A stretch of 64,000 nt of DNA from NCBI GenBank assembly GCA_002748735.1, contig PDTC01000012.1, positions 1 through 64,000 on the forward strand, given 5' to 3'. Shown here piece after piece: positions 6,636 through 45,688 of the stretch (positions are counted from its first letter, which is position 1; the number at the start of each line of letters is the position of its first letter). A program made the translations under genes and the position numbers. The stretch is from Desulfobulbus propionicus. Lineage in GTDB: Bacteria; Desulfobacterota; Desulfobulbia; Desulfobulbales; Desulfobulbaceae. The notes under the pieces were generated by a model. That model was not told the origin of the DNA, searched no databases, and saw only the letters and a program-made list of their open reading frames with translations.

Positions 6636-6693
6636 GCCCTCTTTTATCCTCGTATCGATGAGCAATTCTGTCCAGGGAATCACTCCTCTGTAT

Positions 6694-6860
6694 TTCAGGC
6701 AGGTCTTCTGACTTCCGGCTCTTCTTACTTACCGCACCTTCCCGACACTCTTGCTGTCAGTGGCATATTACGGTGTTCATCCCCGGTTACAGCGGCGGGC
6801 CCGTCCCGGATTCGCACCGGGTTCCCTATTAAGCGTCATTTAGCCAATGATGCACCTGAA
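6694..6860 (-). promoter_or_regulatory. Cobalamin (B12/adenosylcobalamin) riboswitch
   Basis: The minus strand carries the conserved cobalamin aptamer signatures in order. These are GGGAACCCGGTGCGAATCCG near the 5' side, GGGCCCGCCGCTGTAACCGG (the B12-box region with its GCCACTG-like partner further on), and the 3' GGAAGTCAGAAGACCTGCC. The closing P1 helix can be drawn from CAGGT at 6854-6858 and ACCTG at 6700-6704. It sits in the cbiK leader, downstream of a good promoter and upstream of a terminator, so transcriptional repression by cobalamin is expected. Confidence 0.95.
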
Positions 6861-6869
6861 ATCACTTAA

Positions 6870-6899
6870 ACTACAACAGGGCCCAATGACCTCTGTCAA
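6870..6899 (-). promoter_or_regulatory. Putative sigma-70 promoter of the riboswitch-cbiK transcript
   Basis: On the minus strand a perfect TTGACA (6894-6899) is followed after 18 bases by TGTAGT (6870-6875). Transcription would begin near 6862, just before the riboswitch P1 helix at 6860, which agrees well with the aptamer boundary. Confidence 0.6.
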
Positions 6900-17381: not shown

Positions 17382-18938
17382 ATGGCGGCAACCATTAAAC
17401 TCTTCGTCAACGGTAAGGAAGTCGAGGTTGAAGCAGGAAAGAACCTCATCGATGCCATCGGTGCTGTGGGAATCGAGATCCCCCATCTCTGTTACCATCC
17501 GGCCTTGGGCGCCGACGGCAACTGTCGCCTCTGCCTGGTGGGAATCGAAGACGGACGCCCCCCCCTGGTTCCGGCCTGCAAGACTCCGGCCGCCGAGGGT
17601 ATGAAGGTGCTGCTCGACGCCGAGCATATCAAGAAGATTCAACGTGATATCATGGAGCTAGAACTCATTAACCATCCCATAGACTGTCCAGTCTGTGACC
17701 AGGCAGGTGAGTGCAAGCTCCAGGATTTCTACATGGACTACAATGCCACCGACAGTCGATTCCGGGTGGAAAAGGTCGCCAAAGACAAAAAAATGGACTT
17801 CGGTTGCGGGGTGGTTCACGATCAGGAACGCTGCGTCCTCTGCGCCCGCTGTGTCCGGTTTACCAGGAACATCACGAAAACCGGGGAGCTGGGTATTGTC
17901 AACCGGACCGACCAGGCCCGCGTCGAGATCTTTCCCGGGCAGCCCCTGAACAACAGGTATGCCCTCAACGTCGTCGACCTCTGCCCGGTGGGAGCCATGA
18001 CCAGCAAGGACTTCCGCTTTAAGCAGCGGGTCTGGTTCCTGAAAAAAAATGCCGGGGTCTGTCACGGTTGCAGCAAGGGCTGTGCTATTTATATCGATCA
18101 TAATCGCGAAAAGTACGGAGACGACAAAATTTACCGCTACCGTCCCCGTGCCAATGAACTGGTCAATGGCTGGTTCATCTGCGATGCAGGCCGCATGACC
18201 TACAGGCTGGAAAACGAAGCCCGTCTGACCCAGCCGTTTGCGGCAGGGAAAGAGGTCTCTCTGGAAGAAGGGCTGCAGATCGCCAAAGAGCACCTCAGCA
18301 AGGCCCACGACCTGCTCTTCTGGGTCTCGCCCAACTGCTGTCTGGAACAGGTCGCAGCAATCCAGGCCTTTGCCACTGATCGTGATGCGGCAATATCTGG
18401 CTACAGCGACGGTTGTATCCGCCAGGGCGATGGTGATGACTTCCTGATCCGTGACGATAAATCTGCCAACCGTGCCGGCCTGGAGATCCTGGGGGTGCCC
18501 ACGGACAGGGAGGGCCTGAAAGCGATGCTTAGGGCAAGCGATCTGGTGGTGCTCGCGGGTGGAGCCCCGCAGCTCACCGAAGATGATGACGAACTGCTTG
18601 AGGAACTCGGGAAAAAGACCATACTGCTGTTCACCGGTCGTGAGACAGAGCTGGCTGAGAGTGCTGCCGTTGCCTTGCCGGTGACGACCTACAGCGAGTA
18701 CAGCGGCACCGTGATCAACTGCGACGGGATACTCCAGCATTTTCGGACAGCGGTCGTCAAAAACACCCCAGCGCCACACCTCATTGACCTGCTCCACCGG
18801 CTGGGTGGACCAGTGGCGGATACGGCCGCCGCCTGGAGTCTGCTGGGAGAGACACTTCCCGCCCTCGAGGATCTACGTCCCGACCAGGTGCCGCAGACAG
18901 GCCTGAAACTCAATGACTGCGAGGTCAGCCATGCTTGA
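17382..18938 (+). CDS. nuoG: NADH-quinone oxidoreductase subunit G, short form
   Basis: A 518-residue NuoG, against roughly 900 in E. coli. The N-terminal ~250 residues carry the iron-sulfur set: a ferredoxin-like 2Fe-2S domain (IPHLCYHPALGADGNCRLC), a CPVCDQAGEC region, RCVLCARCVRF and a CHGCSKGC plus later Cys consistent with the extra cluster N7. The rest is a shortened molybdopterin-oxidoreductase-like domain without cofactor motifs. The chain ends by overlapping nuoH. Short NuoG forms are common outside enterobacteria, so this is probably natural and not a truncation. Confidence 0.93.
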   Translation: MAATIKLFVNGKEVEVEAGKNLIDAIGAVGIEIPHLCYHPALGADGNCRLCLVGIEDGRPPLVPACKTPAAEGMKVLLDAEHIKKIQRDIMELELINHPIDCPVCDQAGECKLQDFYMDYNATDSRFRVEKVAKDKKMDFGCGVVHDQERCVLCARCVRFTRNITKTGELGIVNRTDQARVEIFPGQPLNNRYALNVVDLCPVGAMTSKDFRFKQRVWFLKKNAGVCHGCSKGCAIYIDHNREKYGDDKIYRYRPRANELVNGWFICDAGRMTYRLENEARLTQPFAAGKEVSLEEGLQIAKEHLSKAHDLLFWVSPNCCLEQVAAIQAFATDRDAAISGYSDGCIRQGDGDDFLIRDDKSANRAGLEILGVPTDREGLKAMLRASDLVVLAGGAPQLTEDDDELLEELGKKTILLFTGRETELAESAAVALPVTTYSEYSGTVINCDGILQHFRTAVVKNTPAPHLIDLLHRLGGPVADTAAAWSLLGETLPALEDLRPDQVPQTGLKLNDCEVSHA

Positions 18939-20211
18939 CTTCATCATGGTTCTTCTTCGGGTGGCCTTCGGGGCCTTTGTGCCGTTGTCCTGTGTTGCCA
19001 TCCTGGTCTGGATGGAACGCCGGGGTGCCGGTTTCATTCAGGACCGCTCCGGTCCCAATCGTGCCGGTATTTTTGGCTTTCGTGCCGCAGGCCTGGTACA
19101 GAACCTGGCCGACGGTATCAAGCTGGCGTTCAAGGAGGACATCATTCCAGGCCACGTTCGTTTCCGGCTCTATTTTGTCCTCGCTCCCATGATCGTCTTC
19201 TTCACGGCAGTGGCGAGCTTTGCCGTGGTACCCTTTGCCGATGTGCTGGTTCTCGGCGGCAAAGAGTATGTCATGCAGGTGCTGCCCCTGGAAATCGGCA
19301 TCCTCTGGTTTCTTGCCTGTGCAGGCTTTGCGGTCTACGGCATCATTCTGGCAGGCTGGTCGTCCCACAACAAGTACGGTATCCTTGGCAGCCTGCGGGC
19401 CGCAGCCCAGGTTATCAGCTACGAGATCCCCATGGGCCTGGCTTTGGTGAGCCTGCTCGTGGTCTACGGCTCGGTCAACCTCACCGAGATCACCCGTTTT
19501 CAGGGGCAGCTGCTGTTTGGCTGCATTCCCATGTGGGGTGTGGTCTTGCAACCCCTTGGCTTTATCATCTTCCTTGTCTCTGCCTTTGCAGAGACCAACC
19601 GTACGCCGTTTGACCTTGCCGAAGGAGAGTCCGAGATTGTTGCCGGTTTCCATGTGGCATACAGCGCCATGAAATTTGCCCTGTTCTTCATGGGAGAATA
19701 TGTGGCCATGTTTGTCTCCAGCGCCATCATTGTCACCCTGTTCTTCGGCGGCTACCAGATCCCCTGGCTCTCTACCGAAACACTCGTGGCCATTGCCAAG
19801 CCGATAGCCTTTCTCCTTATCCTGGTCATCCCTGCAGTGACATGGTTCTTTATCAAATGGATGCGCCGGGCCAACAGGAGCCAGTATCCCCGGGAAAATG
19901 ACCCCCGAATACGCGAGGCAAACGTCTATGCACGACTGATCTGGGGCCTAGTTGGGTTCATTGTCCTGCTGCTGGCCGGATATCTGCTGTTCGCCTCCAG
20001 TGATTCGGCTGATCGCATCCTGGTGGCACTGTTGCAGTCATTGACCTTTCTGCTGAAAACACTCTTCATGTGTTTCGTGTATGTCTGGGTGCGCTGGACC
20101 CTGCCGCGATTCCGCTATGATCAACTGCAGATACTCGGATGGAAAACCTTGTTACCGCTCAGCCTCATCAACATCTTCGTGACCAGCGCGGTCGTCGTCG
20201 CCATCGGCTAG
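18931..20211 (+). CDS. nuoH: NADH-quinone oxidoreductase subunit H
   Basis: A ~426-residue membrane subunit that forms the quinone entry site. Conserved segments are MERRGAGFIQDRSGPNRAG, the acidic loop ETNRTPFDLAEGESEIVAGFHVAYS and the C-terminal FVYVWVRWTLPRFRYDQL. It is about 80-100 residues longer than the usual ~330. The extra segment lies before the last helices (DPRIREANVYARLIWGLVGFIVL and onward) and adds a charged loop and at least one helix. The ATG at 18931 overlaps the nuoG end by 8 bases. Confidence 0.95.
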   Translation: MLDFIMVLLRVAFGAFVPLSCVAILVWMERRGAGFIQDRSGPNRAGIFGFRAAGLVQNLADGIKLAFKEDIIPGHVRFRLYFVLAPMIVFFTAVASFAVVPFADVLVLGGKEYVMQVLPLEIGILWFLACAGFAVYGIILAGWSSHNKYGILGSLRAAAQVISYEIPMGLALVSLLVVYGSVNLTEITRFQGQLLFGCIPMWGVVLQPLGFIIFLVSAFAETNRTPFDLAEGESEIVAGFHVAYSAMKFALFFMGEYVAMFVSSAIIVTLFFGGYQIPWLSTETLVAIAKPIAFLLILVIPAVTWFFIKWMRRANRSQYPRENDPRIREANVYARLIWGLVGFIVLLLAGYLLFASSDSADRILVALLQSLTFLLKTLFMCFVYVWVRWTLPRFRYDQLQILGWKTLLPLSLINIFVTSAVVVAIG

Positions 20212-28176: not shown

Positions 28177-28253
28177 TGGTGGACGGGGCGGGATTCGAAC
28201 CCGCGGCCTTTGGCTTCGGAGGCCAACACTCTATCCAGCTGAGCTACCCATCC
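28177..28253 (-). tRNA. tRNA-Arg (anticodon CCG)
   Basis: The minus strand folds as a full cloverleaf of 77 bases with encoded CCA. Acceptor GGATGGG pairs with CCCGTCC, with discriminator A. The D arm begins TAGCTCAGCTGGATAGAG. The anticodon stem TTGGC/GCCAA encloses loop CTCCGAA, giving anticodon CCG (codon CGG). The T arm is GCGGGTTCGAATCCCGC. A plus-strand frame ending WTGRDSNPRPLASEA is the well-known false protein produced by translating across such a tRNA. Confidence 0.97.
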
Positions 28254-39510: not shown

Positions 39511-39786
39511 ATGCAAACCTTTTTTCCTCAGCAGAACAGCGACAGGCCGGATATTGACTATCCCTGTTCCTGGCAGTATCGGGTCATCGGCATAGACCGG
39601 GATGGGCTGATGCAAGCTGTCTCTGCCTGCATCAGCAAGCGTCCCTGTGAGATCAGGGTCGGTAACACCAGCTCAGGTGGACGCTATGTCAGTGTGATCC
39701 TTGAGGTCGAGGTGAGTAGCGATGAGGATCGGCTGACATTGTACAGCCAGCTCGCTGCCCTGGCCGAGGTGAGGATGGTTCTGTGA
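39511..39786 (+). CDS. DUF493 (YbeD-like) protein
   Basis: A 91-residue protein with the ferredoxin-like DUF493/YbeD fold: YPCSWQYRVIGIDRDGLMQAV at the front and SSGGRYVSVILEVEVSSDEDRLTLYSQL in the middle. The E. coli relative YbeD sits near the lipoate genes, and its function is uncertain. The stop overlaps the GTG start of the next gene by 4 bases. Confidence 0.85.
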   Translation: MQTFFPQQNSDRPDIDYPCSWQYRVIGIDRDGLMQAVSACISKRPCEIRVGNTSSGGRYVSVILEVEVSSDEDRLTLYSQLAALAEVRMVL

Positions 39787-40304
39787 GCGGACAGCAGCAA
39801 GGCAGCACAGACTGGCCCGACTCCAAGATGATCCCGGTGATGCGGGAGGCTATACTCACCGTACAGATGGTGTGTTACCGTAGGGTTGTCAGCGCACTTG
39901 CCGGGCGGCAGTCTGAGCTTGAGCCGGCTCAGCGGCTTCGCCTTGCCGGGGCAGTTATCAACAACCTATTTGGCACCCGGCCGGAAGATTCGGAAGTGGC
40001 GCGTTTCGGCACCCGGCACCCTGAATTGGTGGAGCAGGAACTCTACGGACTGAAAGAGACCCTGGCTGACATGCTGCCATTGCTGACAGATGCCCTACGC
40101 ATGCAGACCATCTGTGACAACCAGGAGGGAATTCACTCCATCGGCTCCCTGCTCATGGCCCGGACACTCGGCCTCCTCGATGAAAACCGCAGTCTACCCA
40201 TGCCATCGACCTTTATGCTGAGCGTGCGCACGCTTGCCGCTACCGAAGGTTTGGTCGAACCCATGAGCCGGCCTGATCAGACTGCAGGGAAACCACCAGG
40301 GTAG
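39783..40304 (+). CDS. Hypothetical helical protein coupled to DUF493 gene
   Basis: A 173-residue protein starting at GTG 39783, overlapping the DUF493 stop (GTGA), so translation is coupled. It is predicted mostly helical, with no signal peptide or cysteine motif. Readable stretches are AILTVQMVCYRRVVSALAGR, AGAVINNLFGTRPEDSEVARF and YGLKETLADMLPLLTDALRM. I do not recognise a family. The tight coupling suggests a joint role with the DUF493 protein. Confidence 0.7.
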   Translation: MSGQQQGSTDWPDSKMIPVMREAILTVQMVCYRRVVSALAGRQSELEPAQRLRLAGAVINNLFGTRPEDSEVARFGTRHPELVEQELYGLKETLADMLPLLTDALRMQTICDNQEGIHSIGSLLMARTLGLLDENRSLPMPSTFMLSVRTLAATEGLVEPMSRPDQTAGKPPG

Positions 40305-40601
40305 CCACATTGTCGGTTTATTCTTTCTCGTACGCCGGAAAGAGACTCTTTGGGATACCAGTTTTCCACCTCTGTATGCCTGATAACCGCCTCACCTTAG
40401 GTCTTTCTCTTAACTGGCTGTTCTCGATGATAGAGAGATAGCGCTCACTAGACTGTATGGACCTCAGTCTCTTGAACCTGAAGTATATCCTTAACACCAA
40501 CCCTCCTGTGCCCCAGAGGGAAACATCTTTACAGGTACACGTGTTATTGTCAGTCAAATGGAGGGGACAAAAAGGCGACCAGGAGAGCTGCAGCTCGGCA
40601 C
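40305..40601. other. Non-coding stretch before the palindrome cluster
   Basis: About 300 bp. A minus-strand open frame (40318-40707) crosses the palindromes and has no family features. A perfect 12-base palindrome gagctgcagctc lies at 40585-40596. Nothing else is supported. Confidence 0.4.
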
Positions 40602-40770
40602 AACAGCGAGTTGAGCGGCTTCCCGTCAGCCTCGGCAGACGTAGTCTGCCGAGGCTGACGGGAAGCGCGCTCGAATGATTGGTTCCGGTGCGCGAGTTAG
40701 CGCACATCGGAACTAATCATTCGAGTGCAGAGCGCAACTCGCTGTTCCGGCGTGCGCAGCGCGCCGGAAC
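40602..40770. repeat. Cluster of nested long palindromes (cloverleaf-capable element)
   Basis: Four inverted repeats are packed into 169 bp. Hairpin A: 40618-40640 with 40644-40666, a perfect 23-bp stem on a 3-base loop. Hairpin B: 40667-40694 with 40701-40728, 28 positions with one true mismatch and the other differences G-T wobbles. An outer 12-bp perfect stem (aacagcgagttg, 40602-40613, with caactcgctgtt, 40735-40746) encloses both, giving a three-way junction. Hairpin C: 40744-40755 with 40759-40770, 12 bp including one wobble, shares three bases with the outer stem. The wobble pattern suggests an RNA fold is maintained, or a repeat that evolved by duplication. No protein is encoded. Confidence 0.9.
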
Positions 40771-40779
40771 AATGTATTG

Positions 40780-40817
40780 AAAAAAAAAACCGGACACCCG
40801 CAAAGGTGCCCGGTTTA
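40780..40817 (-). terminator. Intrinsic terminator of mdh
   Basis: On the minus strand ACCGGGCACC pairs with GGTGTCCGGT (one wobble) around a short loop, followed by about ten T. It lies directly after the mdh stop and next to the palindrome cluster. Confidence 0.85.
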
Positions 40818-44779: not shown

Positions 44780-45688
44780 TCAGTGTTTTTCACTGGCGTG
44801 AGGATGTGCCTGGTCATAGACCCGGGTCAGATGATCCATGTTCAAGTGGGTGTACCGCTGGGTGGTGGAAAGGCTGGCATGGCCGAGCAGTTCCTGGACG
44901 GTACGAAGGTCAGCGCCCATCTCCAGCAGGTGGGTGGCAAAGCTGTGCCGCAGGGCATGCGGGGTGACCGTCGCGGCAATACCGGCGCGCTGTCCATACA
45001 TCTTGATGCATCGCTCGATACTGCGGGGACCAAGTCGAGTTCCCCGACTGTTGAGTAGCAATGCCCGGCGCTCTGGCTGATGTCCCCGTGTACACCGGGC
45101 AATGATCAGCTGTTCTCGTTGGGGCAGATAGGCACTCAGGGCCTCGGCAGCGGCACGACCAAAGGGAACCAGGCGTTCCTTGCGGCCCTTGCCGAGTACC
45201 CGGACCATACCCTGCCGGGTATCAATGTCGTCAAGGTCACAGGCTGCAAGCTCTGACACCCGCATGCCAGTGGCATACATCAGCTCCATACAGGCACGGT
45301 CCCGCAGATAAAAGGTGTCCCGGGGGGAGGGTTCTTCCAGCAAACTGAAGACTTCGTCAACACTGAGATGCGTGGGGATATGCCGGGCCAGCTTTGGGTT
45401 GGCAATACCTTCCAGTGGGTCGCGCTGGAGGAGCTGCTCACGCCGCAGAAAACGAAAGTATGTCCTGAGTGCCGACAGCTTCCGGGCCACAGTGGCGCTG
45501 GATGTCCCGTGATAGAGTGAAGCCACATAGCCTCGGGCCTGTTCCCTGCTCAATCGCTCCACAGTGAACGCTTCTCCACAAAACGCTGCAAACTCTCGAA
45601 CATCACGGAGGTAACCGTCAACGGTATGCGGAGAATAGCCCCGTTCCACGTGAAGCCAGCGGGCAAAAAGATCAATGGTCGCCAACAT
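44780..45688 (-). CDS. xerC: Tyrosine recombinase XerC
   Basis: A 302-residue tyrosine recombinase. The N-terminal SAM-like DNA-binding domain (WLHVERGYSPHTVDGYLRDV) is followed by the catalytic domain with Arg143 (ATGMRVSEL), Lys167 (VLGKGRKERLVPFG), His244/Arg247 (TPHALRHSFATHLLEMGADL), His270 and nucleophile Tyr279 (GHASLSTTQRYTHL). Position next to hslVU argues for XerC of chromosome-dimer resolution at dif and not a mobile-element integrase. The start at 45688 is the conserved MLATIDLF; the longer frame adds a non-conserved leader. Confidence 0.94.
   Translation of the reverse strand: MLATIDLFARWLHVERGYSPHTVDGYLRDVREFAAFCGEAFTVERLSREQARGYVASLYHGTSSATVARKLSALRTYFRFLRREQLLQRDPLEGIANPKLARHIPTHLSVDEVFSLLEEPSPRDTFYLRDRACMELMYATGMRVSELAACDLDDIDTRQGMVRVLGKGRKERLVPFGRAAAEALSAYLPQREQLIIARCTRGHQPERRALLLNSRGTRLGPRSIERCIKMYGQRAGIAATVTPHALRHSFATHLLEMGADLRTVQELLGHASLSTTQRYTHLNMDHLTRVYDQAHPHASEKH

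Follow-up and report, generated by a model that had tools for sequence, protein, structure and literature searches.

A modular palindromic repeat family with attC-like ends, a candidate gene-less integron cassette, in a Desulfocapsaceae-type genome

A dense set of nested hairpins occupies positions 40602-40770 of the 64,000-nt stretch of DNA analysed here, which is referred to as the window. A fundamental question is what such a structure is, and why are its stems so well paired? All four stems described in an earlier sequence-only reading were recovered. A 23-bp hairpin is perfect (40618-40640 with 40644-40666, loop of 3 nt), and a 28-position hairpin (40667-40694 with 40701-40728) is 86% complementary, its four non-Watson-Crick positions comprising three G-T and one C-A. 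An enclosing stem (AACAGCGAGTTG with CAACTCGCTGTT, 40602-40613 and 40735-40746) is paired at 12/12 positions, and a fourth hairpin (40744-40755 with 40759-40770) has GTT in common with the outer stem and one G-T among its 12 pairs. The proposed cloverleaf also emerged from RNA folding of 40590-40790, which gave a three-way junction accompanied by a side hairpin, with energies of −141.5 kcal/mol (z −16.0) on the plus strand and −127.9 kcal/mol (z −14.9) on the minus strand; 0 of 200 shuffles matched the native energy on either strand. The mdh terminator named as a neighbour corresponds to a terminator-like inverted repeat at 40787-40816 (minus strand), which adjoins the element and lies outside it. 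Convergent with mdh is a 173-aa ORF (39783-40304, plus strand) that had no Pfam match at E 0.01. At the Rfam gathering score the window holds three matches, all on the minus strand and none at the element: a cobalamin riboswitch (6681-6874), a TPP riboswitch (22-124) and a tRNA (28180-28253). The best matches of Mdh, at 84% identity, are one Desulfocapsaceae MAG and one unplaced deltaproteobacterial MAG, which places the host organism near the Desulfocapsaceae.

Read on the minus strand, the window copy (W) is made up of the modules hairpin D (40744-40770, GTTCCGGCG..CGCCGGAAC), arm a (40735-40746, AGCGAGTTG; one half of the 12-bp outer stem, as AACAGCGAGTTG), hairpin C (40667-40728, imperfect over 28 positions and with a core similar to that of D), hairpin B (40618-40666) and arm a' (40601-40613, CAACTCGCTGTT), which finishes in the attC-like end CAACTCGCTG|TTG. 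The genome of origin (1.81 Mb in 30 contigs, 85.6% complete, Desulfocapsaceae-type) was searched with this element, and the 22 resulting rows represent 14 places on nine contigs, since six rows repeat the same palindrome on the opposite strand and two others are second fragments of one copy or another. Further searches contributed three additional places (C11a at C11:19214, weak, E 0.002; C6:33047, E 1.7e-9; C18:826, E 1.9e-4), giving 17 in all after exclusion of C21d (C21:991), C9:681 and C17:45825 as weak or partial; C21d lies outside the 17 places, yet supplies one row of the hairpin D alignment discussed below. Matches of model R2 to its seven training copies hold by construction. The stretch is therefore multi-copy in its own genome, a fact beyond the reach of the sequence-only reading. 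The element gave 0 matches against 72 other genomes of the family and 0 against 36 relatives, a set that overlaps with the 72. The D-hairpin pattern (23 fixed bases) had 0 matches in genome_contigs and the D and B patterns 0 and 0 in viral_contigs, all by exact-pattern search of collections that may omit near relatives, and the plasmid and phage collections held no element match at exact-pattern or BLAST level, with the same possible omission of near-relative records. The stretch is one copy of a modular palindromic repeat family that occurs, among the genomes searched, only in its own; its members are short and non-coding, with inverted outer arms, and lie both within genes and between them.

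Module composition varies from copy to copy. C17a and C18 consist of D-a-a'; C17b and C27b of D, one side of C, B and a'; C11a of a partial D, a partial B and a'; C21a of B-a'; and C16 of C alone. The ends are asymmetric, with hairpin D on one side. The left end is readable in 12 of the 16 tabulated copies, where it is G|TTC in 11, as in the GTTCCGG that starts D in the window, and A|TTC (ATTCCGG) in C3b. An attC-type right end is present in 10 of the 16, with GTT in eight, GAT in C18 and a one-base shift in C3a, and the next base is a purine in all 10, as in the core GTTRRRY. The right end of C3b has diverged and lacks GTT, and no such end exists in C21b, C16, C23, C27a or C21d; both ends are readable in eight of the 16. 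This right-end tabulation drops the C3b and C21d rows as chance matches and omits arms that have CCGG or CTG after them, these being the same arm read in the opposite orientation. The minus-strand span thus runs from the hairpin at G|TTCCGG to CAACTCGCTG|TTR, and the latter end also occurs in an attC-type site of this genome. In all 12 readable copies the boundary is constant and the left flanks differ, save for the common attC end of C17a and C11a. At C21 989-1015 there is also a D-like hairpin with its outer pairs swapped (ACTCCGGCG..CGCCGGAGT), beside which no other module of the element was recognised.

How do these boundaries relate to known recombination sites? An attC site spans RYYYAAC to GTTRRRY over 57-141 bp (PMC3053210, in extract), and the integron integrase cuts between G and TT and accepts off-target GNT triplets, GAT being one accepted by IntI1 (PMC10127599, in extract). 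A complete attC-type site stands directly before both C17a and C11a, such that the site ends CTGCG and the element starts TTCCGG exactly at the crossover. At C11 the stop codon of an open frame falls inside GGCTAAC (the inverse core), followed by the attC-type site and then the element, and the ORF after the element (PF09997, E 4e-43) begins at GTTATG. The region C11 ~17970-19510 (minus strand) reads as a small cassette-like array without integrase, in which two more attC-model matches (E 0.0017 and 0.0024) lie behind ORFs; it is flanked by a region that we read by eye as galE and by a small gene preceding what we take, likewise by eye, to be ligA. Elsewhere on this contig (21190-21694) an open frame and a terminator-like palindrome run directly into the partial copy C11b at the contig end. 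Judged by eye, the frame is presumably transposase-like, and an insertion sequence may have entered the element at this point.

The minus-strand order on C17 is a gene that we take by eye to be a sensor kinase, C17b, a 393-aa ORF starting 21 bases after GTT, an attC-type site, C17a, and a gene likewise taken by eye to be dnaJ-like. A dnaJ match was found in 53 other genomes, and the loci of 19 were fetched for comparison. A homologue of either the kinase (nine loci) or its response-regulator neighbour (eight) lies no more than 300 nt from dnaJ in 17 of these 19 loci; the kinase is 498 nt away in one of the remaining two, and neither was found in the other. The corresponding gap to the dnaJ-like gene is 1,628 nt in the genome studied here, and the 393-aa ORF has no match in any of the 19 loci. 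For this reason, the block bounded by two copies, with a cassette-like gene and the attC-type site of that gene, has been inserted between two genes that relatives carry side by side. An acetyltransferase gene on C27, around 87128-87228, is divided by another copy into two pieces, which correspond to residues 10-66 and 77-188 of 3mqg, a protein of solved structure; the gene carries other frame damage as well, so that an exact empty site is not proved. Together with the dispersed copies, the split gene and the two-copy block support the suggestion that the stretch belongs to a non-autonomous mobile element. The window copy itself would be a solitary insertion beyond the mdh terminator. Seven other window genes were compared with the first 32 of the 80 mdh loci retained, and none had a match there, so insertion at mdh cannot be judged from these loci.

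Six attC-type sites in the genome are homologous to one another, their majority pattern being TAACAAGTCGTT..GGTGAACTCT..GTT, with the inverse core having diverged in one of the six. A sequence model built from them found nine more places in the genome at E<=1, five of these below 1e-3, and one place, on C8, spans AACAAGTCG to GTTAGGC. Applied to the fetched loci, the model gave a weak partial match (E 0.012) to an attC of relative G064, ~2.5 kb from an integrase gene, and motif rules for attC near the relatives' integrases identified one convincing site, on G064. The window gave no match to the model, and holds no classical attC, at E<=1. At C6 7726-10743, cassette-type ORFs (PF08020, PF12674, PF06445 and an AAA domain) have three attC-type sites between or behind them. 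Integron integrase genes exceed the cut-off in 36 of the 73 family genomes; the 85.6%-complete assembly studied here has none, its two tyrosine-recombinase genes falling below the cut-off. The tyrosine-recombinase gene at 44828-45646 (minus strand) of the window is below it and is probably of Xer type. The arm CAACTCGCTGTTR occurs 28 times in the 72 other genomes compared with 14 for its reversed control, and seven times compared with one in the own genome (21 compared with six with one mismatch allowed). The arm motif TAACARGTCGTT, by contrast with its control, is the rarer of the two when up to one mismatch is allowed (16 versus 29), so the motif alone proves nothing; it has three exact matches, each of them an attC-type site. 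When the short attC-type sites were folded as bottom-strand DNA, the canonical paired boxes with extrahelical bases did not appear. The idea of a protein-binding palindrome survives in one respect, namely that the outer arms resemble integron recombination arms.

Why, then, are the window hairpins perfect? Comparison of module B in eight copies revealed 23/23 pairing in the window copy only; of the remaining copies, six have both arms and are paired at 12 to 18 positions, and one has a single arm left, so that B is imperfect, damaged or partial in all seven. The 5' arm in the window equals that of C17b, C27b and C21a at 23/23 positions, whereas the 3' arm deviates from the version common to the family and is the exact reverse complement of the 5' arm. 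Such a pattern is what template-switch correction would leave behind. Correction of this kind can yield a perfect stem in one event, and template switching can maintain paired stems in the absence of selection (PMC8794818, in extract). We therefore infer, with the direction taken from parsimony, that the perfect stems of the window copy arose by template-switch correction of imperfect ones; the other B copies could alternatively have decayed from a shared perfect ancestor. The outer stem may have the same template-switch origin, given that most short attC-type sites have unlike arms whereas the element has an arm and its inverted copy. Retention of such long hairpins had been ascribed to selection or recent mobility. 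Perfect pairing is now a weaker argument for selection, since hairpin B is imperfect or damaged in the other copies and the perfect form has the look of a single-step correction. A covariation analysis of hairpin D in nine sequences found 4 of 12 pairs altered on both sides (the shuffles averaged 1.7, with at least four in 11 of 500), two of the four stemming from the weakly placed row C21d. Such changes fit correction as well as selection.

On balance, and with moderate confidence, we hypothesize that the element is a gene-less, attC-armed miniature cassette that was dispersed by an integron integrase acting in trans. An integrase absent from the assembly would have recognised the folded single strand of the element and recombined it with GTT targets, both within attC sites and in the chromosome; a solitary copy would have entered past the mdh terminator, and template-switch correction would have made the window stems perfect, so that this copy would now serve the integrase poorly as a substrate. 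The element can be explained without any host function. In favour of the cassette hypothesis are the G|TTC left ends, the purine after the right ends and the attC junctions of C17a and C11a, as well as the 14 places, the C17 block, the split gene on C27, the attC-model places and the integrases in 36 of 73 family genomes. The C11 arrangement, where a cassette's stop codon falls within the inverse core and the following ORF starts at GTTATG, argues in the same direction. Against it, the constant ends would equally fit a transposon that duplicates GTT, both ends are readable in only half of the tabulated copies, and C3b has A at its left and no GTT at its right. Moreover, the assembly holds no integrase, no canonical attC fold was obtained in silico, and TAACARGTCGTT is rarer than its control. 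The window, which holds no classical attC at E<=1, carries a copy that the published rules do not class as a working attC. The end of this copy, GTTGTGC, agrees with GTTRRRY at six of seven positions, and elsewhere the right end is GAT in C18, displaced by one base in C3a and diverged in C3b. CCGGAAC in place of RYYYAAC precedes arm a, the span from CCGGAAC to GTTGTGC measures about 153 bases where 57-141 bp is the published range, and the outer stem is fully paired where extrahelical bases would be required; the window copy was accordingly rejected as a proper attC. A cassette boundary at the G|TT crossover beside attC sites or cassettes is found at C17a, C11a and the C17 block, among which the window copy does not figure.

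The chief rival, which we consider rather unlikely, is a conventional miniature inverted-repeat element mobilised by a DDE transposase with a 3-bp target duplication (GTT/AAC), its landing at attC sites and gene ends being preference or chance. Such an element would account for the perfect 12-bp inverted repeat of the outer arms and for GTT at both ends of most readable copies, and fragments of IS-type transposases adjoin two copies, namely a winged-helix N-terminal piece at C18 and the transposase-like frame, so named by eye, at C11b. However, two copies start exactly at the attC crossover, C18 ends in GAT rather than GTT, and an unsystematic look showed no transposase with the ends of the element. 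A further hypothesis, less probable still, is that these are old attC sites with an overgrown variable loop that travelled only within ordinary cassettes and later lost their genes or arms. C17a and C11a can indeed be interpreted as a single long attC whose outer arms are unlike, and C17b, C18b and C11a precede cassette-like genes; the differing left flanks at the constant boundary, outside the attC end common to C17a and C11a, and the complete short attC-type site in front of the element in these two copies argue against it.

The very stable fold and the hairpin D changes (in part from the weak row C21d) could be interpreted as selection for a regulatory element or for a structured RNA, the latter allowed by the sequence-only reading; gene-less cassettes are moreover already known, many of them with promoter activity in vibrios (PMC11014356, in extract). 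We nevertheless regard this as very improbable, because the element has no Rfam match and no match in the relatives searched, whole modules vary between copies, and template switching is able to keep stems paired without selection (PMC8794818, in extract). The least probable proposal is that a Y1 transposase mobilised the element as a palindrome of REP/BIME or IS200/IS605 type. The genome does encode two Y1_Tnp genes and the element would be hairpin DNA in single-stranded form, but the Y1 loci carry other hairpins and neither 3.3-kb locus yielded a BLAST match to the element, so that the REP/BIME assignment suggested earlier finds no support and an IS200/IS605 origin was rejected.

Integrons have been studied mainly as gene stores, and a gene-free, attC-ended repeat family would show that integrons can breed parasitic or persistent repeats. 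We tentatively propose the wider scenario in which integron arms gave rise to a self-contained, gene-free repeat that spread off-integron through an integrase in trans and whose stems were perfected by template switching. The natural series of imperfect and perfect hairpins would allow template-switch correction and integrase activity to be tested side by side. A limited search of the open literature on integrons or attC together with Desulfobulb, MITE or gene-less cassettes returned no title on such a repeat family. Among known systems, REP/BIME sequences are similarly dispersed as intergenic hairpins within one genome, whereas the element has other ends, is much longer and is absent from the Y1 transposase loci of its genome. 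Cassettes that enter the chromosome at non-classical attG sites (Loot et al. 2024, via PMC12901181, in extract) resemble it in that its copies occupy scattered chromosomal GTT-type targets; unlike those cassettes as described there, the element is repeated and non-coding and its assembly lacks an integrase. ORF-less integron cassettes and CALIN share with it the lack of a gene, the attC-type end and the placement in cassette-like arrays, as on C11 and C17. Unlike them, the element is oversized and nearly all palindromic, its arms are perfectly paired, and it forms a recognisable repeat family that is also found outside arrays.
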